21,870 nucleotides of DNA, from IMG/VR virus record IMGVR_UViG_3300042505_001147, positions 1 through 21,870 of that record, one strand, 5' to 3'. Position numbers and translations under genes: made by a program. Shown in pieces: positions 1,738 to 10,266 of this stretch; within the stretch, counting starts at the first letter, position 1, and every line of letters begins with the position of its first letter. Below the pieces are notes generated by a model that made no database searches, was not told the origin of the DNA, and saw nothing but the letters and a program-made list of their open reading frames with translations. Origin of the DNA: a virus.

Positions 1738-3456
1738 ATGGCAAGAACAAATTTATCATTAGGTAATTTATATAGAGCAACAGTGGGTTCGGAAAGAACT
1801 ACACAAGCTTCGTCTTTAAATGCAAGAAACGCATCGGCGGGAACTGCAGCATCAATGTTAGCATTCGCAGTTGATTCTATAACAATAAATCAACCAACTT
1901 TTACATACATAGTAGAAAGCACATCAGAAAATGCAACTTTTTCATTTGGTTCAGCCGGTTCTTTACATGGAACTAGAGTTGGAAGTGTAGCAGCAAACTA
2001 TACAGTATCATTTAATAATGCTAACTTTACAGTAGGTTCTCCAACATTAGGAGCATCTCCATCGTTTCCAATTACACCCGCAGCAATAAACGCATCAAAC
2101 TATTCCGAAGCTCAATCTACTTTGTCAATGACATATGCAGATGGATACAATTTGGCAGCAACAAATTATAATAGTACATCTACAAAAATATTATACGCAG
2201 TAGATGTTTATAATACAATTAACCAACCTGACTTTTGTCTATTGTTTGGTACACAAATAGAATTGGCAAATGGTACAATGGTAAATGTTGAAGATTTGAA
2301 TGTTGGAGATGAAATTAAATCTTGGGTACCTGCAGGATTGCCTGATGAAAATTTAGACCCTGAGAGTGACCAAATTGAATGGAGATTTTATCATTCGGAT
2401 ACTTTGGAAGGTTCTGCACAAAATGTAACAGTTACAGATTTAACTTTCAACTTTGCAGAAGGATATTTTTCACTTAATAATGGTTTAATTAAAGCAACCG
2501 AAACTCACCCTTTATATGTTTGGGATAATGAGATTGGTAAATATAAGTTTAAGAATGTAGGTGAAATTTTACCTGGAGATAAATTAGTAATGCAAGATGA
2601 AACTGAAGTAGAAGTTACTAATATCGAAATCGTAACAGATGATGTTGAAATTGTAACTGTAAATGTTGAAAATGCCGATGTATATATTTCAAATGGTTTA
2701 ATTTCACATAACAAAGGAACAACCACACAACCTTCTATACCTGCAAGTGGATTAAGATTATATGTTGACCCATCAAAAGCATCATCAACGGCAGGTACTG
2801 CAACGGCAGACTGGTTAGACCTTTCGGGTTATAATACCGGTGTAAGACCTGCAGGTGTTGCAAACGCAGCAAGTATTACTGGAGGTAACCCATCGTATAA
2901 TGCAGGAGCAAGTAGAAAGGAAAAATATTGGGCAGGAAATGGTACAAACCAATTTTGGTACAAAGATACTACTACAAATATCAATGGTGGCATTTCCCAA
3001 TTCAATACCAATACTGGTACAATTCATATGTGGATTAGACCTACAACAACATTAGGTGTAGGGTCAAGACATATTTTTGATTACGCAGGATTTTATGGTT
3101 TAGCAATCGAATCAACTGATAGTTCTACATTAAATAGAGTTAGATTCTATGGTAGTACATTAGGAAATAGTGCACAATTAACGACTTCATTATCATCAAA
3201 TGTGTGGTATATGATTTCGGCAACATTCCAACCAAGTGGTACAACTACCGTTTATGTGGATGGAACATCGGTAGGAACATTTACAGCATCTGCATTCACT
3301 GCACCATCTAATACTAATTTTTTAACAATTGGTAGTAATAGTGCAAGAACAACATTTTGGAATGGACAAATCGGACCAGTATTGTTCTATAATGTATTAC
3401 AAAATTCGACAAAAGTAACAGAAACATATAATTATTTCTCACCAACATACAAATAA
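1738..3456 (+). CDS. Tail-associated adhesin with intein-like Hint domain and LamG-like domain
   Basis: A 572-residue protein in three parts. Residues 1-166 are Ser/Thr/Asn/Ala-rich and beta-type with no clear family. Residues 167-325 form a Hint (intein-like) domain: Cys167 in CLLFGTQIELANG (block A), T254-x-x-H257 in ATETHPLYV (block B), then VYISNGLISHN ending at His324-Asn325 (blocks F and G). Residues ~335-572 look like a concanavalin/LamG jelly roll, with GLRLYVDPS, DLSGYN, TIHMWIRP, WYMISATF, TTTVYVDGTSVG and FWNGQIGPVLFYN in the usual order; such folds often bind glycans. Cys167, the block B His and the terminal Asn are all present, so autocleavage is plausible. The residue after Asn325 is Lys, not Cys/Ser/Thr, so ordinary splicing is not expected. 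No homing endonuclease is inserted. Its position next to the fibre and sheath genes suggests a virion surface protein. Confidence 0.8.
   Translation: MARTNLSLGNLYRATVGSERTTQASSLNARNASAGTAASMLAFAVDSITINQPTFTYIVESTSENATFSFGSAGSLHGTRVGSVAANYTVSFNNANFTVGSPTLGASPSFPITPAAINASNYSEAQSTLSMTYADGYNLAATNYNSTSTKILYAVDVYNTINQPDFCLLFGTQIELANGTMVNVEDLNVGDEIKSWVPAGLPDENLDPESDQIEWRFYHSDTLEGSAQNVTVTDLTFNFAEGYFSLNNGLIKATETHPLYVWDNEIGKYKFKNVGEILPGDKLVMQDETEVEVTNIEIVTDDVEIVTVNVENADVYISNGLISHNKGTTTQPSIPASGLRLYVDPSKASSTAGTATADWLDLSGYNTGVRPAGVANAASITGGNPSYNAGASRKEKYWAGNGTNQFWYKDTTTNINGGISQFNTNTGTIHMWIRPTTTLGVGSRHIFDYAGFYGLAIESTDSSTLNRVRFYGSTLGNSAQLTTSLSSNVWYMISATFQPSGTTTVYVDGTSVGTFTASAFTAPSNTNFLTIGSNSARTTFWNGQIGPVLFYNVLQNSTKVTETYNYFSPTYK
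2236..2712 (+). other. Hint / bacterial-intein-like domain (159 residues) inside the adhesin
   Basis: From the Cys167 codon (2236-2238) to the Asn325 codon (2710-2712). It has all splicing blocks but no endonuclease, and Lys326 follows the terminal Asn. Bacterial intein-like type A domains are known to keep the C-terminal His-Asn while lacking a nucleophile at +1, which fits this case best. Expected chemistry is cleavage at one or both ends rather than canonical splicing; this is inference. Confidence 0.75.
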
Positions 3457-3527: not shown

Positions 3528-5768
3528 ATGGCAGAAAAATTAGTATCGGCAGGTGTTTTCACAAGAGAAAACGACCTTTCATTCTTACAACAAGGTGTAG
3601 CAGATATAGGTGCAGCATTCATAGGCCCGTTCAACGAAGGTCCAGTAGTTCCAACAATTGTAAATTCACAAGCTGAGTTTGCTGAATTATTTGGAGCAGC
3701 TGATGGAAAATATTATACTCCATTAGCAGTACAAAACTATTTAAGAGAAGCAGGAACTGCAACAATTTGTAGAGTAGCGGGTGTAGGTGGATATACCGCA
3801 CAAAATCCTTTACTATTAACAATAACTACGGGTTCAGTATCAGCATCAGTTGGTATTTTATTCCCTACTGATAAAAATACATTAACAACAGGATTAAGTG
3901 GTTCATCGTTTACAACATTATCAGATGGTGACTTTATCATCAGTATAACTGGTTCAACAAATTTTGCAGGAACATCATCAGTTGATTCCGAAGATACAAA
4001 CGATATTGAATCAACATTTGGTACATCTCCATTGGGAGCTAAAGGTGCATATGTATACGGATTTTTCAAAAACCATAGTGTAACAATTGGTACAAACACA
4101 TCATCTAGTGTAAGTGTATTAGATGACCAATTATTTACATTTGATGCACAAGAAGCATTAACTCCAATGATTAAATCACAAACTATTAGTGGTGACAGAT
4201 TTGATTTATTTCAATTAGAAACATTGGGTGTTGGTAATTCTGCAAATACAAAAGTAAAAATAGGTATTTCAAATATTAAAGCAGCTGGTTCAGTAAACGG
4301 AACAGATTATGGTACATTCACAATTGTAGTAAGAGACTTTGCAGATACTGAAAAGAAAAAAATTGTATTAGAAACTTATTCAAATATAAACTTAGACCCT
4401 AATTCTCCTAACTATATCGCAAGAGTAATTGGTGATAGAAAAAGAGAAATTGCTAATGATGGTAAAATAACTGAAAGTGGTGATTGGGTAAACAATTCTA
4501 AATATGTTAGAGTTGTAATGCCAGCAACATCGGCACCTGTACAATCGGTTCCATTTGGGCATTCGGCTTATACTTTACCAATATCTGCATCTGCAGCAAT
4601 TGGAGCATTGGTTCCATCTGTAACATTTGTAACTGCATCAGCAACACAAAATGGTGGTATCGATTTAGATTTTAATACGGATAATTCAATCTACTTAAAA
4701 GCAATTCCAACAGGAGCAGGTGTAGGTTCTAATTCAGCATTTGGATTGGATGCAGCAAATGGTGGTACATTATCAGTAGGTTCTTCTTTAGCACAATTCG
4801 TTGTAGCATTTCAAGAAGGATTTGATGGTATGAATCCGGCAACTCCAATCTATAAAGATTCGGATATATCTGCAGGAAACTCACAAGGTTTTAACTTAAC
4901 AAATTCTACATCAAGTGGTTCAGTTGCATATATGAAAGCAATTAACGCATTATCTAATACCGATGAATTCGATATTAATATGGTTGTAGCACCTGGTGTT
5001 ACTAAGAATGACCACTCATATGTACATACAGCAATAGTTGATATGGTAGAACAAAGAGCAGATGCTTTCTTTATTACCGAAATGGGTGATTCTGATTTAG
5101 GATTAACTGCAACGGTAACTAAAGCTAGTGAGTTAGATACTAACTACGCAGCAACTTACTACCCTTGGATTAAAACAATCGATATAAATACAAACAAATT
5201 AATCACAGTTCCACCATCAGTATTACTTCCAGGTGTATTCGCATCAAACGATAGAGTAGCAGCAGAATGGTTCGCACCAGCAGGTTTGAATAGAGGTGGT
5301 TTAGTAGGAGCAGTTAGCGTATTGAATAGATTAACTCAATCTGAAAAAGATGAATTATATGAAGGTAAAGTAAACCCAATCGTACAATTCCCAGGACAAG
5401 GTATCGTAGTATTCGGACAAAAAACATTACAAGACAAACCATCAGCATTAGATAGAATTAATGTAAGAAGATTGTTATTGACCGTTAGAAAGTATATCGC
5501 ATCTACTTCAAGATACTTAGTATTCGAACAAAATACTTCAACAACAAGAAACATATTCTTAAATATTGTTAACCCTTATTTAGAATCAATCCAACAAAGA
5601 CAAGGTTTGTACGCATTCCGTGTTGTAATGGACGATACTAATAACACACCAGATGTAATTGATAGAAACATCCTTAAAGGAGCTATCTACTTACAACCAA
5701 CTAAGACCGCTGAATTCATTCAAATTGATTTCAACATCTTACCAACTGGAGCAGCATTTAACGGATAA
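3528..5768 (+). CDS. Contractile tail sheath protein (T4 gp18-like)
   Basis: A 746-residue protein that would form the contractile outer tube of the tail. The N-terminus shows the sheath signature: FTRENDLSFLQQGV, then FIGPFNEGPVVPTIV, AEFAELFG and YYTPLAVQNYLREAG. The C-terminus has the conserved sheath core: VRRLLLTVRKYI, TSRYLVFEQN, LESIQQRQGLYAFRV and the final IQIDFNILPTGA strand. The middle (~110-450) is variable and Ser/Thr/Gly-rich, matching the protruding domains; the protein is longer than T4 gp18 (659 aa). It is followed by the tube gene, the standard order in contractile phages. The ATG at 3528 puts the conserved N-terminal segment in its usual place. Confidence 0.95.
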   Translation: MAEKLVSAGVFTRENDLSFLQQGVADIGAAFIGPFNEGPVVPTIVNSQAEFAELFGAADGKYYTPLAVQNYLREAGTATICRVAGVGGYTAQNPLLLTITTGSVSASVGILFPTDKNTLTTGLSGSSFTTLSDGDFIISITGSTNFAGTSSVDSEDTNDIESTFGTSPLGAKGAYVYGFFKNHSVTIGTNTSSSVSVLDDQLFTFDAQEALTPMIKSQTISGDRFDLFQLETLGVGNSANTKVKIGISNIKAAGSVNGTDYGTFTIVVRDFADTEKKKIVLETYSNINLDPNSPNYIARVIGDRKREIANDGKITESGDWVNNSKYVRVVMPATSAPVQSVPFGHSAYTLPISASAAIGALVPSVTFVTASATQNGGIDLDFNTDNSIYLKAIPTGAGVGSNSAFGLDAANGGTLSVGSSLAQFVVAFQEGFDGMNPATPIYKDSDISAGNSQGFNLTNSTSSGSVAYMKAINALSNTDEFDINMVVAPGVTKNDHSYVHTAIVDMVEQRADAFFITEMGDSDLGLTATVTKASELDTNYAATYYPWIKTIDINTNKLITVPPSVLLPGVFASNDRVAAEWFAPAGLNRGGLVGAVSVLNRLTQSEKDELYEGKVNPIVQFPGQGIVVFGQKTLQDKPSALDRINVRRLLLTVRKYIASTSRYLVFEQNTSTTRNIFLNIVNPYLESIQQRQGLYAFRVVMDDTNNTPDVIDRNILKGAIYLQPTKTAEFIQIDFNILPTGAAFNG

Positions 5769-5814: not shown

Positions 5815-6306
5815 ATGCCAGAAATATTAGAGTTTGATAAAATTTTCTATAAGAATTTTGAGCCGAAGATGTCCAACAGATTTATAATGGAAATCGATGG
5901 CATCCAATCGTATATTATCAAAACAGCACAAAGACCTACTATCACATCCGAAGTAGTTGAATTAGACCACATCAATGTAAAAAGAAAGCTTAAAGGTAAA
6001 TCAACTTGGGATGATGTAGAAATCACTCTATATGACCCAATTGCCCCATCCGGAGCTCAACAGGTAATGGATTGGATTAGATTATCACATGAGTCAATCA
6101 CAGGTAGAGATGGATACGCTGCATTCTACAAAAAAAGAATTAAATTCTTTTCATTAGGCCCAGTAGGAGATAAAGTTGAAGAATGGACATTAATAGGTGC
6201 ATTTATCACTCAAGCAAACTTTGGTGAAATGGATTGGTCAAACACAACAGACCCAGTTTCAATCACATTGACTTTAGCATATGATTATGCTATCTTAGAA
6301 TACTAA
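5815..6306 (+). CDS. Tail tube protein (T4 gp19-like)
   Basis: A 163-residue protein, the same length as T4 gp19, expected to polymerise as hexamers into the inner tail tube under the sheath. Supporting segments are KMSNRFIMEIDGI near the N-terminus, VELDHINVKRKLKGK with WDDVEITLYDP in the middle, and the C-terminal beta strands ITQANFGEMDW and VSITLTLAYDYAIL, all typical of phage tube proteins. It follows the sheath gene and is closed by a strong terminator, so sheath and tube form their own transcription block. Confidence 0.93.
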   Translation: MPEILEFDKIFYKNFEPKMSNRFIMEIDGIQSYIIKTAQRPTITSEVVELDHINVKRKLKGKSTWDDVEITLYDPIAPSGAQQVMDWIRLSHESITGRDGYAAFYKKRIKFFSLGPVGDKVEEWTLIGAFITQANFGEMDWSNTTDPVSITLTLAYDYAILEY

Positions 6307-6326: not shown

Positions 6327-6357
6327 AAAAGGATACCCACAAAGTATCCTTTTTTTA
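6327..6357 (+). terminator. Rho-independent terminator after tail tube gene
   Basis: A perfect 10-bp stem (6327-6336 with 6344-6353; core GGATAC/GTATCC) with a 7-base loop, running into a T-rich tract (seven T at 6350-6356, then more after one A). It lies 20 bases after the tube stop codon and before the next candidate promoter. It is the only convincing intrinsic terminator seen in the window. Confidence 0.88.
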
Positions 6358-6402: not shown

Positions 6403-7215
6403 ATGGAACAAAACATTGAACAACAAGTTACAAGAGGATTGGGTGGATTTCAACAACAAGGACAAAAATCATACCCATTCCCAACAGAGATTATTAGTTT
6501 ACCATCTAAAGGATTATGTTATCCTGAATCATCTCCACTATCTAAAGGAGAAATTACAATTAAGTTAATGACCGCAAAAGAAGAAGACATTTTGACTTCT
6601 ACTAATTTAATTCGTAAAGGTATTCAATTAGATAAGTTATTAGAATCTATCGTAGTTGAACCTGGAGTTAATATCAATGATTTATTAGTAGGTGATAAGA
6701 ATGCAATATTAGTTACAAGTAGAATGTTAGCATTCGGACCAGATTACCCAATCACAGTTAGAGATAATGGTACTAGAAAAAACGAAGAAGTAAATGTTGA
6801 TTTATCTAAAATTGAAATAAAAGAAATAGATGAATCACTACTAAATAGACAAAATGAGTATGATTTCGTTTTACCTGTTTCAAAAACACCTATTAAGTTC
6901 AAATTATTAACACATGGTGATGAATTGGCAATAAATAAAGATGTTGAGGCTAGTGAAAAAATAACAAAGCAAGGTAATGAAATTACTGCTAGATATAGAA
7001 AAATTATAATAGAAGTCAATGGTAATAGAGATTTAGGCCATATTAGTAATTTTGTTGCAAATCAATTACTTGCAGGAGATAGTAGAGGTTTGAGAAAATA
7101 TATGAAAAGTATAACACCTGATTTAAACTTAACATTTGAATACACGCATTCAGACGGTGAAACGGAGGCACTAAGAATCCCATTTGGGGTTGACTTTTTT
7201 TACCCTACCGAGTAA
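6403..7215 (+). CDS. Baseplate hub assembly protein (T4 gp26-like)
   Basis: A 270-residue protein recognised as the T4-type base plate protein family (gp26). Diagnostic segments are SLPSKGLCYP (residues 32-41), MTAKEEDIL (56-64), TNLIRKGIQLDKLLE, the LLVGDKNAILVTSRMLAFG segment and a C-terminal region ending in IPFGVDFFYPTE. T4 gp26 is 208 aa; this one is longer. In T4 gp26 acts in hub assembly and is not a major tail component; in many tailed phages the gene at this position, just before the tape measure, is a tail assembly chaperone. Its last 32 bases overlap the next reading frame, which is shifted by +1; a run of seven T lies in the overlap. Confidence 0.8.
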   Translation: MEQNIEQQVTRGLGGFQQQGQKSYPFPTEIISLPSKGLCYPESSPLSKGEITIKLMTAKEEDILTSTNLIRKGIQLDKLLESIVVEPGVNINDLLVGDKNAILVTSRMLAFGPDYPITVRDNGTRKNEEVNVDLSKIEIKEIDESLLNRQNEYDFVLPVSKTPIKFKLLTHGDELAINKDVEASEKITKQGNEITARYRKIIIEVNGNRDLGHISNFVANQLLAGDSRGLRKYMKSITPDLNLTFEYTHSDGETEALRIPFGVDFFYPTE

Positions 7216-7417
7216 TTACTCTTTAATTTTACACGAAAAAATATTTCAAATGATATATTTTGCCAATGGTGGATTTAATTGGCATGATTTATATTATATG
7301 CCTATTAAATTAAGAGAATTTTATTGGAGAGAGTTATTAAAAACAAAAGATTCCGAAAAGAAATCATATGAAAAGGCATCTAAAAAATCAAATACATCAA
7401 AAACCTCTAGAAAGTAA
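7184..7417 (+). CDS. gp51-like baseplate hub assembly protein (short; start uncertain, possibly a frameshift product)
   Basis: The product contains IFQMIYFANGG then FNWHDLYYMPIKLREFY, a pattern I associate with gp51-type proteins that follow gp26 in T4-like phages, and ends in a charged Lys/Ser-rich tail. T4 gp51 itself is much longer (249 aa). The start is unclear. Frame +2 is open from 7175; TTG 7184 would give 77 residues; ATG 7250 would give 55 but cuts off the LHEKIF segment that appears to belong to the domain. Alternatively the frame is entered by a shift from the gp26-like gene. No ribosome binding site precedes either start. The position between gp26-like and tape measure genes supports an assembly role. 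Confidence 0.65.
   Translation: MGLTFFTLPSNYSLILHEKIFQMIYFANGGFNWHDLYYMPIKLREFYWRELLKTKDSEKKSYEKASKKSNTSKTSRK
7195..7201 (+). other. T7 run in gp26/gp51 overlap, candidate translational slippage site
   Basis: In the gp26-like frame this reads GAC TTT TTT TAC. A +1 (or -2) shift here reads on as TTT TTT ACC CTA and joins the two proteins into one. A homopolymer of this type is a plausible slippery site, but no stimulatory structure was identified. Confidence 0.35.
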
Positions 7418-7425
7418 TATTTATA
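7417..7425 (+). promoter_or_regulatory. ATATTTATA box, candidate late promoter for small gene and tape measure
   Basis: Exact copy overlapping the stop codon of the gp51-like gene by one base, followed by CTAAAG, 13 bases before ATG 7439. It would drive the small gene and the tape measure gene, which overlap by one base. Confidence 0.48.
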
Positions 7426-7438
7426 CTAAAGTATTTTT

Positions 7439-7687
7439 ATGCCGAAGAAAACATTGGTAGAAGTTAATATATTTAATAAATTATTTAACTTATTCATAAA
7501 AGCAAAATCCGATAATAAAGAACATGAGTTTATTAGGAATATGCAAAAAAAAGACCCTAAATTGGGTAAATTATATTCAATGTGGAATGATAAGATGGAT
7601 ATTGCATTGAATCAAATGAAAGGTATTTTACAAAGTAAGGGATTGGATACAACTGAAATAGATAAAGTTCTTAATAAAAGATACTAA
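7439..7687 (+). CDS. Small helical protein of unknown function before the tape measure gene
   Basis: An 82-residue Lys-rich protein (MPKKTLVEVNIFNKLFNLF...) that looks alpha-helical throughout, with no membrane segment. I do not recognise a family. Its stop codon shares one base with the tape measure start (TAATG), indicating translational coupling, so it may assist tape measure folding or hub assembly. That role is inferred from position only. Confidence 0.7.
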   Translation: MPKKTLVEVNIFNKLFNLFIKAKSDNKEHEFIRNMQKKDPKLGKLYSMWNDKMDIALNQMKGILQSKGLDTTEIDKVLNKRY

Positions 7688-10266
7688 TGGCTAAACCAAA
7701 TTCAAAAGAACAGCAAGAAGAACTTGAGTTTTTAAAAAAACAAAGAGAGTCTTATGAAAGTGCTATTAAAACAATAAGAGAATTTAATAAAGCATCACAA
7801 CAGAGACGTGGTGAAATGCAAAAAGATTTGGTTGAAGCTAGAAAGATGAGAGAATCATTTGAAGAACAATTTAAATCTTTAAAAAATATAAATACTTTAA
7901 TAGAAAAAACTGCAAAGGGATTTTCTAATATGACGGATGAGTTATCCGACCAACAAAAAAGAGTTCAAGATTTAGGAAAAGATTGGGACGAAATTGATGA
8001 CTTACAAAATAGTATATCATCACATTATGGTAAACAGTATGGTGATATTGGCCAAATACAGAAAAAAATAGATGGAACTAAAGCTTTAATAACTAGTATA
8101 TCGGCTTTATTGGATAAAAACAGTGATGCATATGGTGACCAACTTGATAAAATTTTAGATGCGGCAGAAACATATAAATCATTCCCTGCAACATTTGCAA
8201 CATTAAATAAACAAGTCAAGCAGAGAAAAATAACGGAATCACAAATGGTTCAAATGCTTAAAGAAAATTTGGACGATTTTGATGAAATGGTTTCAAAAAT
8301 TAAAATAATAAATAGTCAAACAGGAGAAGTTGTAGATTTATTTAAAACATTAAATAATGAACAAGATACTTTTAATAAAGCACAAGCACAAAAGTCACAA
8401 TTCAAACCAGCTGCATCGGCATTGATTACCGAATCACCATTAGGTTCTGCACCCGTAGTTGGTGGTGCAATATCAAAAGGGACACAATCATTATTTTCAG
8501 AAGAATCCATAACTGGTGCGGGAACGATTGGGTTATTTTTCATACTAGGAAAAGCATTGGGTAGTCTTGCTGAAATTGAAAAAGCTTTTAGTGCAACTGA
8601 CCAAGAAATTGCAAATAATTTTAAAGGTAGAGAAAGATACTTTGATGCAATTCTTAAACAGACCGACATGTTTATAGAAGCACAAGAAAAGATAACGGAA
8701 AGAGTTGGTGGATTTACGGAAAAATTTGCACAGTTTGACTTTGATACCGAAATGGGAAATTTGGTAATTGATTTTAATAAAGTTTCAAAAACTGCATTTT
8801 TTGGTAGCGCGTTAGGAAGTCCAAAATATGCAAAAGACCAATTGGCATTGGCCGGCATAAGTGCATCAGAAATTGCATCAACCATGTCCGAAATGTCCAC
8901 TGGTGCAAATAGTGCAATGCAAGGATTAGGAGAAGATGTTGCAGTATTCTCTAAAAAAACAGATATAGCTTCTTCACAAGTTGCAGGTTTAACTGGACTA
9001 TTTAGAATGTTGGACAAAACAGGTGGTGCAGATGCATTCAAAAATTTAGAAAAATCTCTAAGTGGTGTAGGACTTAAAGGATTTAATGTTGCAGATATAG
9101 CCAATGAATTAGCAAATTCAAGTGAACTGGCCCTCCACTATAATATAAAAAGTGGTGCAGAACTTGTCAAACAGGTTAAGAATGTTAGAGATATGGGAGC
9201 CTCTTTTGCAAAAATTGCAGAAGCAGGTAAATCTATGGTATTGAATTATAAGGATAGTATTTCTAAAGAAATGGAACTATCTGCAATGTTAGGTGAAAAC
9301 GTAGATTTGTCAGAAGCTAGAGCATTGTTTGCAGCCGGTAGAAGTGATGAGGCTTTTGGTGTATTAAAATCGTCTGGAATATTAGAAAAAGCACAATCAC
9401 AAGGCCTTTTTGCAATGCAATCATTGCAATCTGCAATTGGTGGTATGGATTTGACACAATTAGCTGCTGGTAAATACGAAACAGGACCAAAACAGGGATT
9501 AATTTCTAATACTGGATTTTTATCTGCAACAAAAGAAGCAGACAGAATTGCAAAAATAGAAGCTGCAAATTTTCAAATAGATAGAGCAATAATTCGACTA
9601 ACTGATACGGACTTAGACCAAGCTCTTGCATTTGCACTTGGTACAAATCAAGAAATAACAAGATTGGAATTGGCAAAGATGGGCACAGAAATTCAAAAAT
9701 TTATTGATGTCGAAGGACAGACGGTAATAGATGCATTTTCTCCTTCAACATTTATCGCAGCATCTAGATTGCTATCAGGACAAACCGATTATGGTATGAT
9801 GGGCACTAATTTATTTCCAGGAGGATATGGTACAGGTGCACAAAGAACTTTTACTATTCCAGATGAAATTAAAAAAAATGCACAAACACCGGTTGAATAT
9901 ATTCCAGGTAAATCAGGAGTATCATCAACACAAGCTGGTATAAGTAATTTGACACCTGGAGGACAAAAATATAGTTTTGAAACTTCAAATAAATTAGCAG
10001 CTGCAACTGCAAAAATGCAAGAAAAAGCAACAACAAGTTTGGATTCACAGGGTAAATTATTACAGTCTTCAGATGCATCACTTAAAATGATAAATGCACA
10101 ATCAACTTTACAAACTCAATTATTACAAAATATCCAAGCATTAACTGCTGCAACGTCTAGATTGGGTAATATAGGATTAGGTGATATGAAATTATTATTA
10201 GATGGTAAAGAAGTTAAGAGTAGAATTGAAAAAATAAAAATACAAGAAAAGGGAAAAACTAAATAA
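7687..10266 (+). CDS. Tail tape measure protein (T4 gp29 position)
   Basis: An 859-residue protein. Residues ~1-110 are charged coiled coil (KEQQEELEFLKKQRESYESA...), followed by more helical repeats to ~250. A hydrophobic, Gly-rich stretch with TIGLFFILGKALGSLA lies at ~278-293, as many tape measure proteins have. The rest is Ala/Gly/Ser-rich helix, ending in a Gln/Lys-rich tail. It is the longest coding region of the window and sits after the gp26/gp51-like genes and before the tube initiator gene, as in T4-like phages. At the usual ~0.15 nm per residue it would set a tail of roughly 130 nm (rule-of-thumb inference). The evidence is composition, length and position rather than a specific motif. 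Confidence 0.75.
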   Translation: MAKPNSKEQQEELEFLKKQRESYESAIKTIREFNKASQQRRGEMQKDLVEARKMRESFEEQFKSLKNINTLIEKTAKGFSNMTDELSDQQKRVQDLGKDWDEIDDLQNSISSHYGKQYGDIGQIQKKIDGTKALITSISALLDKNSDAYGDQLDKILDAAETYKSFPATFATLNKQVKQRKITESQMVQMLKENLDDFDEMVSKIKIINSQTGEVVDLFKTLNNEQDTFNKAQAQKSQFKPAASALITESPLGSAPVVGGAISKGTQSLFSEESITGAGTIGLFFILGKALGSLAEIEKAFSATDQEIANNFKGRERYFDAILKQTDMFIEAQEKITERVGGFTEKFAQFDFDTEMGNLVIDFNKVSKTAFFGSALGSPKYAKDQLALAGISASEIASTMSEMSTGANSAMQGLGEDVAVFSKKTDIASSQVAGLTGLFRMLDKTGGADAFKNLEKSLSGVGLKGFNVADIANELANSSELALHYNIKSGAELVKQVKNVRDMGASFAKIAEAGKSMVLNYKDSISKEMELSAMLGENVDLSEARALFAAGRSDEAFGVLKSSGILEKAQSQGLFAMQSLQSAIGGMDLTQLAAGKYETGPKQGLISNTGFLSATKEADRIAKIEAANFQIDRAIIRLTDTDLDQALAFALGTNQEITRLELAKMGTEIQKFIDVEGQTVIDAFSPSTFIAASRLLSGQTDYGMMGTNLFPGGYGTGAQRTFTIPDEIKKNAQTPVEYIPGKSGVSSTQAGISNLTPGGQKYSFETSNKLAAATAKMQEKATTSLDSQGKLLQSSDASLKMINAQSTLQTQLLQNIQALTAATSRLGNIGLGDMKLLLDGKEVKSRIEKIKIQEKGKTK

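Follow-up and report, generated by a model that had tools for sequence, protein, structure and literature searches.

A probable +1 frameshift at the end of a gp26-like gene points to a tail-assembly chaperone of two lengths in T4-type phages

In the virus record IMGVR_UViG_3300042505_001147 (21,870 bases, given as one strand and referred to here, at its full length, as the window), a gene resembling T4 gene 26 runs at its 3′ end into a second open frame that resembles gene 51, is displaced by +1 and has its first in-frame ATG, at 7250, inside the conserved domain. This raises the question of how the gp51-like domain comes to be translated. Sequence comparisons indicate that the locus very probably makes a tail-assembly chaperone in two lengths, by a +1 slip of the ribosome at UUU UUU U. 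The frame, the site, the missing starts, the conservation, the paralogy and the two-gene forms described below are observed directly. The features concerned, with lengths in nucleotides (nt) or amino acids (aa), are as follows.

6403 to 7215, + strand: gp26-like gene, short form (gpG-like), 270 aa, C-terminus GVDFFYPTE followed by the stop; matches PF12322 and phrog_150
7164 to 7168, + strand: GGAGG element with Shine-Dalgarno-like letters and a putative role, 26 nt 5′ of the T run
7175 to 7417, + strand: gp51-like frame, open, +1 relative to the gp26-like gene
7176 to 7191, + strand: predicted 5′ hairpin, 6 base pairs with a 4-nt loop, 3 nt before the first TTT, minimum free energy (MFE) −7.0 kcal/mol
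7195 to 7201, + strand: shift site TTT TTT T, comprising the E-site Phe codon, the P-site Phe codon and one T
7202 to 7417, + strand: +1-frame extension (gp51-like domain), 71 codons and a stop

The gp26-like protein passes the PF12322 (T4_baseplate) cut-off of 24.5 by a narrow margin, at 27.7 bits, and matches phrog_150, “baseplate hub”, with E 2e-10.

The overlap and its conservation in close relatives

A reading of the window made from its letters (the sequence-only reading) had proposed that a frameshift joins the two frames, pointing to a gp51-like frame open from 7175 across the end of gp26, to a run of seven Ts where a shift would fuse the frames, and to a first ATG lying within the conserved part. 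Each of these was borne out: the frame is open from 7175 to 7417, and the register at the T run is GAC TTT TTT TAC CCT ACC GAG TAA. Two in-frame TTG codons, at 7184 and 7190, had gone unmentioned, and the +1 fusion (P0001, gp26-gp51) computes to 337 aa instead of the roughly 342 residues given earlier.

We compared the window with the best 80 of 600 relatives among viral contigs, which together make a window-type set of 81 with 76 different coding sequences among them. Of the six peptides used for the search, one spanned the Phe-Phe end of gp26, which leaves codon choice unbiased. Conservation of the T run and the overlap, which the earlier reading had named as a check, was found almost throughout: the gp51-like frame is +1 to gp26 with an open overlap in all 81 sequences, and 80 of them keep TTTTTTT at its position, the exception, L055, having TTCTTTT. 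The overlap is not a matter of chance, since it is open in every sequence and the heptamer is kept in all but one. At the site, TTT encodes the first Phe in 80/81 sequences and the second in 81/81; at the two other conserved Phe columns of gp26 it does so in 49/81 and 62/80, and all gp26 Phe codons, the site included, divide into 734 TTT and 176 TTC; the TTT codons at the shift site are under synonymous constraint. Across both strands of the window TTTTTTT occurs 20 times against a shuffled expectation of 52, and the + strand, which bears the genes treated here, has it only twice, at 6350 (between genes) and at 7195, the other 18 matches lying on the minus strand.

Conservation of the extension sets in with the very first codon past the T run, with the consensus TLPxNYS..LH..IF.M...NGGF.W.DVY.MP..LR.FY in the window's clade, and in 26 of the 81 sequences the gp51 frame has no ATG, GTG or TTG as far as 24 nt beyond the run. 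The locus shows sequence features of a frameshifted gpG/gpGT-type pair, namely overlapping frames of which the second lacks a start of its own in these 26 sequences, a slippery site that is conserved where the first frame ends, and a tape measure placed by position. Together, the T run, the frame, the missing starts and the extension domain in 80 relatives argue for the proposed fusion by frameshift.

The same arrangement was found in contigs of metagenome-assembled genomes (MAGs), seven of whose eight matches reach the site, all with TTTTTTT (eight Ts in L305) and all with the +1 extension open. Their record titles name Flavobacteriales, Flavobacteriaceae or Winogradskyella in five cases and Sphingobacteriales in one, and the best isolate relatives of the window are Flavobacterium phages. 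The host of the window virus is likely to belong to the Bacteroidota.

RNA signals upstream of the T run

A GGAGG begins exactly 31 nt before the T run in 65 of the 81 window-type sequences (background: 16 in the 57,018 nt of these genes that lie further upstream), and 15 have no GGAGG within 60 nt. Shine-Dalgarno-like motifs precede the first ATG in 81 of the 337 open reading frames (ORFs) of these loci, against 9% of random 15-mers that contain one, and the GGAGG therefore need not be a classical Shine-Dalgarno site. Pairing of the GGAGG with a downstream CCTNCC was considered and rejected, being absent from the alifold prediction and broken in several loci.

The last 26 nt before the T run fold with a mean MFE of −6.33 kcal/mol, compared to −1.26 in control windows (64 distinct sequences), with 45 of the 64 folding more stably than 95% of their own control windows. 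The folding-energy minimum of this set is located at the T run, the register of the stem varies among clades, and downstream of the run there is little extra structure (−4.92 vs −4.15). Mean upstream folding is also stronger than in controls in three other +1 groups, namely the SP-15-type group (mean −4.32 vs −1.44; 20 distinct sequences, 5 at 0.0), a marine group (−5.54 vs −1.93; 10 distinct, 1 at 0.0) and the isolates together with MAG contigs (−3.95 vs −1.51; 14 distinct, 1 at 0.0). An Rfam search of window positions 7000-7500 gave a single match, at chance level (E 0.11).

We infer from these patterns that a fraction of ribosomes shifts here in the +1 direction, with a role for the hairpin, and that the products act as chaperones. 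Most ribosomes would terminate at 7213-7215 to give gp26. A minority would slip by +1, the P-site tRNA-Phe moving from UUU (7198-7200) to UUU (7199-7201) while the E site holds a weakly paired UUU (7195-7197), and would then read the +1 frame to 7417, yielding the 337-aa gp26-gp51 fusion from the same start codon. Such a slip requires P-site re-pairing on UUU-U alone; the hairpin re-forming just behind the E site, and perhaps also the GGAGG, would favour +1.

The prfB-type +1 frameshift has a stop codon in the A site and a Shine-Dalgarno sequence about 3 nt upstream. The window shares with it the re-pairing of the P-site codon one base downstream (TTT T), but differs in its A-site codon (TAC/TGG, no stop) and in the 26 nt between GGAGG and T run. 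Papers are cited here by PubMed Central (PMC) accession, each from an excerpt. On 70S ribosomes, a hairpin adjoining the E site stimulates +1 and attenuates −1 shifting (Huang 2018, PMC6321510); the same study cites weak E-site pairing as favouring +1, although its own limited mutagenesis did not point to E-site pairing as the main cause of the switch. These two effects would account for a hairpin lying upstream and for the use of TTT as the first Phe codon. In +1 shifting before a stop, CCC and UUU rank next after CUU as slippery codons (PMC10274946).

Shift types and two-gene forms across the PF12322 family

For the wider family, isolate sites were read by eye and a census of 212 loci was classed by rule, with two further scans giving the best 80 of 458 and the best 80 of 586 relatives. 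Amongst isolates, the +1 frame is open in Microcystis phage Mel-JY01 (seven Ts), Flavobacterium phage immuto (TTT CTT T), Bacillus phage SP-15 (TTT TTT C), Listeria phage LIS04 (TTT TTT A), Streptococcus phage GXN1 (TTC TTT C) and Rhodothermus phage RM378 (seven Ts, its +1 frame being known as an open frame alone), and the −1 frame in Xanthomonas phage XacN1 and LR756511, at T TTT TTT / T TTT TTC. The census assigned a +1 extension to 137 loci, a −1 extension to 64 and two genes to 3, leaving 2 unclassified and 6 cut; the entry “unclassified” for L205 should read two-gene, L204 (two-gene) and L206 (unclassified) standing as assigned by the rule. The +1 sites are TTT TTT T (95), TTT TTT C (18), TTC TTT C (7), CCC A (6), TTC TTT T (3, including L055), TTT CTT T (3) and others (5); the rule picks the last slippery quad, so that a small number of labels such as GAG TTT T and AAT TTT T may be wrong, L307 actually carrying seven Ts. 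The −1 sites are TTTTTTC (57), TTTTTTT (6) and none (1), this last, L079, being a wrong entry that carries seven Ts with a +1 extension.

The SP-15-type lineage is mostly +1 at TTT C, and the lineage of jumbo phages is −1. Folding in the jumbo −1 group is clear on neither side (upstream −3.29 vs −2.05, downstream −7.38 vs −6.15), and a Shine-Dalgarno-like motif was found in 0 of its 56 sequences. In six SP-15-type loci (L128, L131-L133, L137 and L138) the Phe-Phe slip site is absent and the last +1-prone quad of the overlap is CCC A, a possible alternative slip site; in L123 and L124 the zero frame extends well beyond FFR, with the extension still in the +1 frame.

The cyanophage type, represented by the best 80 of the 586 relatives, has TTTTTTC in 80/80 loci, where the −1 frame would be reached at T TTT TTC. 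An ATG lies 5 nt past the start of the gp26 stop codon in 67/80 and is absent within 12 nt of the stop in 13/80. GGAG, GAGG or AGGA occurs in the 16 nt from −22 to −7 in 72/80 (background 10%), and GGAGG stands at −15 in 42 of 78 distinct sequences. Here there is no structure upstream (−1.93 vs −1.62) and strong structure downstream, as a 3′ stem-loop (−11.78 vs −5.22), 54 of 73 distinct sequences being more stable than 95% of control windows. Since an alifold consensus of the 3′ region returned no structure, perhaps because of junction offsets, per-sequence folding was used; among isolates the stem is strong in S-PM2 and P-SSM2 and weak in HTVC008M (−3.7). That the window-type +1 group has its structure on the 5′ side, and the −1 group of cyanophages on the 3′ side, agrees with the rule of Huang 2018.

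All 20 phage records searched have a PF12322 match over the cut-off. In T4, genes 26 and 51 are divergent neighbours that both match the family (gp26 8.2e-65, gp51 1.8e-53) and are paralogous at E 2e-6 in a two-sequence search without composition correction; residues 1-201 of the 249 in gp51 form its PF12322 part, leaving a C-terminal surplus of 48 residues. Among hand-picked T4-type phages, two copies were found in T4, RB49, 133 and 44RR, and one in KVP40, nt-1, Aeh1, DLP6, S-PM2, P-SSM2, HTVC008M, Cr30 and phiM12. All nine one-copy phages carry T TTT TTC/T at the Phe-Phe end with the −1 frame continuing, and such a site was found in gp26 of none of the four two-copy phages. An ATG stands at the junction or nearby in eight of the nine, strictly at the junction in seven; in the extension frame HTVC008M has none before the domain and Aeh1 none before +50. 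The −1 frame of Aeh1 holds the extension domain (L331:1036-1201, equal to Aeh1 118835-119000, between gp26 and the next gene), and the Aeh1 record annotates no gene over it. By comparison, Sullivan 2010 (PMC3037559) describes gp51 of cyanophages and marine vibriophages as being without its first ~200 residues, and gp51 as missing in Aeh1.

A second two-gene form was found in L203, L205 and L209, where the second of two consecutive genes carries the extension in frame at its C-terminus, the first being short and ending LFWPNAKI. In L203 this is a 327-aa open frame (PF12322 E 2.6e-11) whose residues 263-308 align with the window extension profile at E 1.1e-8. Taken with T4, at least two groups therefore encode the short and the long form by separate genes. 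The sequence-only reading had held that relatives with separate genes and a proper start for gp51 would speak against a frameshift. Such relatives do exist (T4, RB49, 133 and 44RR), but their gp51 carries a gp26-type domain of its own, which supports the model of a short and a long form rather than refuting it.

The extensions themselves were compared as profiles, each E-value being for a single comparison. The window type matches the SP-15 type at 2.6e-11 and the jumbo type at 1.7e-10; the cyanophage type matches the SP-15 type at 1.9e-5 (probability 78), the T4 gp51 C-terminus at 5.6e-5 (probability 66) and the window at 2.1e-3 (probability 13), and cyanophage against jumbo gave no match. 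One alignment that included extension-only rows was set aside, as these seemed to be misplaced in it.

On these grounds we think it likely that, across the whole T4 superfamily, the gp26 family forms a gpG/gpGT-like pair whose route to the long form has switched repeatedly, and that T4 replaced the frameshift by duplication, with gp51 as the gpGT counterpart. There would be three routes: a +1 slip accompanied by a 5′ hairpin, a −1 slip accompanied by a GGAGG-like motif on the 5′ side and a stem-loop on the 3′ side, and two genes after duplication (in the T4 group and, separately, in the L203 group).

Alternatives, known systems and the surrounding module

The sequence-only reading had left the shift as +1 or −2; both do reach the frame, but they are not equal, since the sites of other lineages favour +1. 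For a −2 slip, in which tRNA-Phe would move back two bases to UUU and add one extra Phe, it can be said that the T run allows it, that the first TTT it needs is conserved in all but one window-type sequence, and that −2 is known in phage Mu (PMC5009743). We nevertheless hold it to be improbable, as TTC TTT C, TTC TTT T, TTT CTT T and CCC A permit +1 re-pairing but no standard P-site re-pairing two bases back, and as a 5′ hairpin is the known +1 arrangement (PMC6321510). These sites also bear on slippage of RNA polymerase, which would produce mRNAs one base shorter that encode the fusion. While the near-invariant pure T run suits slippage, the +1 arrangement is kept without a long run at TTC TTT C, TTT CTT T and CCC A, neither codon register nor hairpin would be required, and + strand A7 runs are tolerated elsewhere in the window, as its 18 minus-strand matches attest, so that this explanation appears very improbable.

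A separate gp51 might instead begin at TTG 7184 or 7190, or at another non-ATG start, by way of the GGAGG or re-initiation, and could coexist with frameshifting. TTG occurs at −18 and −12 in 28 and 31 of the 81 sequences, and at −30, about 3 nt beyond the usual GGAGG position, in 8; cyanophages mostly have their junction ATG, and the S-PM2 record annotates gp51 as a gene by itself. Set against this are the 26 window-type sequences with no candidate start codon, the 13 cyanophage-type loci with no ATG near the stop, Aeh1 with none before +50, the invariant TTT codons, which a separate start leaves unexplained, and the window's GGAGG, from whose end it is 15 and 21 nt to the two TTG codons. An independent start is ruled out as the general mode by the loci lacking one, though it is possible as an addition in cyanophages; as the explanation for the window we judge it very improbable. 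That the overlap is incidental and the gp51 frame not expressed has a negligible probability, given that the extension is conserved as a protein in four profiled groups and stands in frame in the two-gene forms.

Several observations nonetheless weigh against a two-length chaperone made by a +1 slip. The A site holds a sense codon, UAC or UGG, in place of a stop. Within clades, hairpin covariation is weak, the score being reached by 19/500 and by 103/500 shuffles in samples of 25 and 17 sequences chosen from the 81, so the hairpin rests on energy and position; it is missing in some relatives (L064 0.0, L076 −3.1 kcal/mol), and upstream folding is 0.0 in 7 of 44 distinct sequences of the other +1 groups. 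The window extension has no direct match to T4 gp51 in profile comparison and would be linked to it by way of the extensions of the SP-15 type and the cyanophages, at modest probabilities, which makes the bridge to T4 an indirect one for this domain, though a firm one for the gp26 part. Fold matches to known tail chaperones are weak in the predicted structures, below the level at which they would stand alone. The 2010 review PMC3004832 counts T4 gp26 and gp51 among the chaperones of hub assembly; it also says that genetics supports gp26 as a hub part, which would not fit a pure chaperone.

These structures were predicted for the L203 long form and the window gp26, both with a mean predicted local distance difference test score (pLDDT) of 87.1. 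By VIA-align, the long form matches YqbN (3klu) at Z 5.8 over 100 residues with a root-mean-square deviation (rmsd) of 4.6; we take YqbN to be a tail chaperone, its entry title being silent on this. It also matches the HK97 tail assembly chaperone (2ob9) at Z 5.2 over 81 residues (rmsd 5.1; next match 3.7). The window gp26 model matches 2ob9 at Z 3.9, over a residue range different from that of the long form. No Pfam tail-chaperone family matched the window proteins, a sequence search of solved structures returned a designed protein alone (E 0.037), and Foldseek against PDB gave nothing at E 0.001 or better.

From gene position, short and long architecture, and recurrence, gp26 and gp26-51 are probably the T4-superfamily counterpart of lambda gpG and gpGT. 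By analogy with these, coating of the tape measure would fall to the part common to both forms, and recruitment of tail tube subunits to the extension. What the two systems would share is a short and a long chaperone made through frameshifting; the window pair differs in its protein family (PF12322), in being a T4-superfamily gene, and in its putative +1 shift at UUU UUU U with a predicted 5′ hairpin. T4 gp26 and gp51, which would be the same two products from two genes, share PF12322 and the C-terminal extension of gp51, but are encoded divergently and without a slip site. The short gp51 of cyanophages and vibriophages resembles the window in having the extension domain directly after gp26, and differs in its putative −1 shift, 5′ GGAGG-like motif, 3′ stem-loop and frequent junction ATG. 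The two-gene system of PMC2147016 embodies the same concept of a short and a long form, the likeness being one of concept alone.

The gp26-like gene and gp51-like frame sit in a T4-like tail module, after sheath and tube genes and before a small and a long ORF.

3528 to 5768: sheath gene
5815 to 6306, + strand: tail tube protein, gp19-like, directly upstream of the gp26-like gene (PF06841, E 9e-8)
7439 to 7687, + strand: 82-aa ORF between the fused gene and the tape measure candidate
7687 to 10266, + strand: candidate tape measure protein, 859 aa, called from position and size

The 82-aa ORF, for which no significant Pfam or PHROG match was found (best E 0.023 and 0.032), probably lies outside the frameshift mechanism. 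The large ORF that comes next after gp26 in Flavobacterium phage immuto bears the annotation tail tape measure protein, and the 7687-10266 product is the candidate client expected for the chaperone. Elsewhere, the window encodes a Peptidase_S74 chaperone-of-endosialidase domain (PF13884) at 185-724 and, in a 572-aa ORF at 1738-3456, a LamG domain (PF13385, residues 420-556), preceded by a stretch (CLLFGTQIELANG ... GLISHNKG) that we take, by eye, to resemble a Hint/intein-type insert. A PhyH-type dioxygenase (PF05721, 14959-15735) and a partial family A DNA polymerase (PF00476, 15775-17046) lie within the structural region.

Frameshifted tail chaperones are already known, and the direction of the shift is −1, −2 or +1 depending on the phage (PMC5009743). 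The PF12322 family as an instance, the switching of direction and the two-gene reading of T4 were not found in searches of open-access papers, which yielded no report of a gp26/gp51 frameshift either (one may exist in a subscription journal); the excerpts of PMC13119998, PMC6509524 and PMC9024508 contain nothing on it. The long product is unannotated in the immuto, Mel-JY01, SP-15, Aeh1 and S-PM2 records. Two forms from one gene would account for the truncated gp51 of cyanophages and the reported absence of gp51 from Aeh1 (PMC3037559). The family would also offer a natural comparison, in which one gene family shifts by +1 or −1 with RNA structure on the 5′ or 3′ side accordingly. If this reading is true, T4-like phages would no longer be the exception to a tail-chaperone frameshift that is described as conserved “except T4” (PMC5009743).
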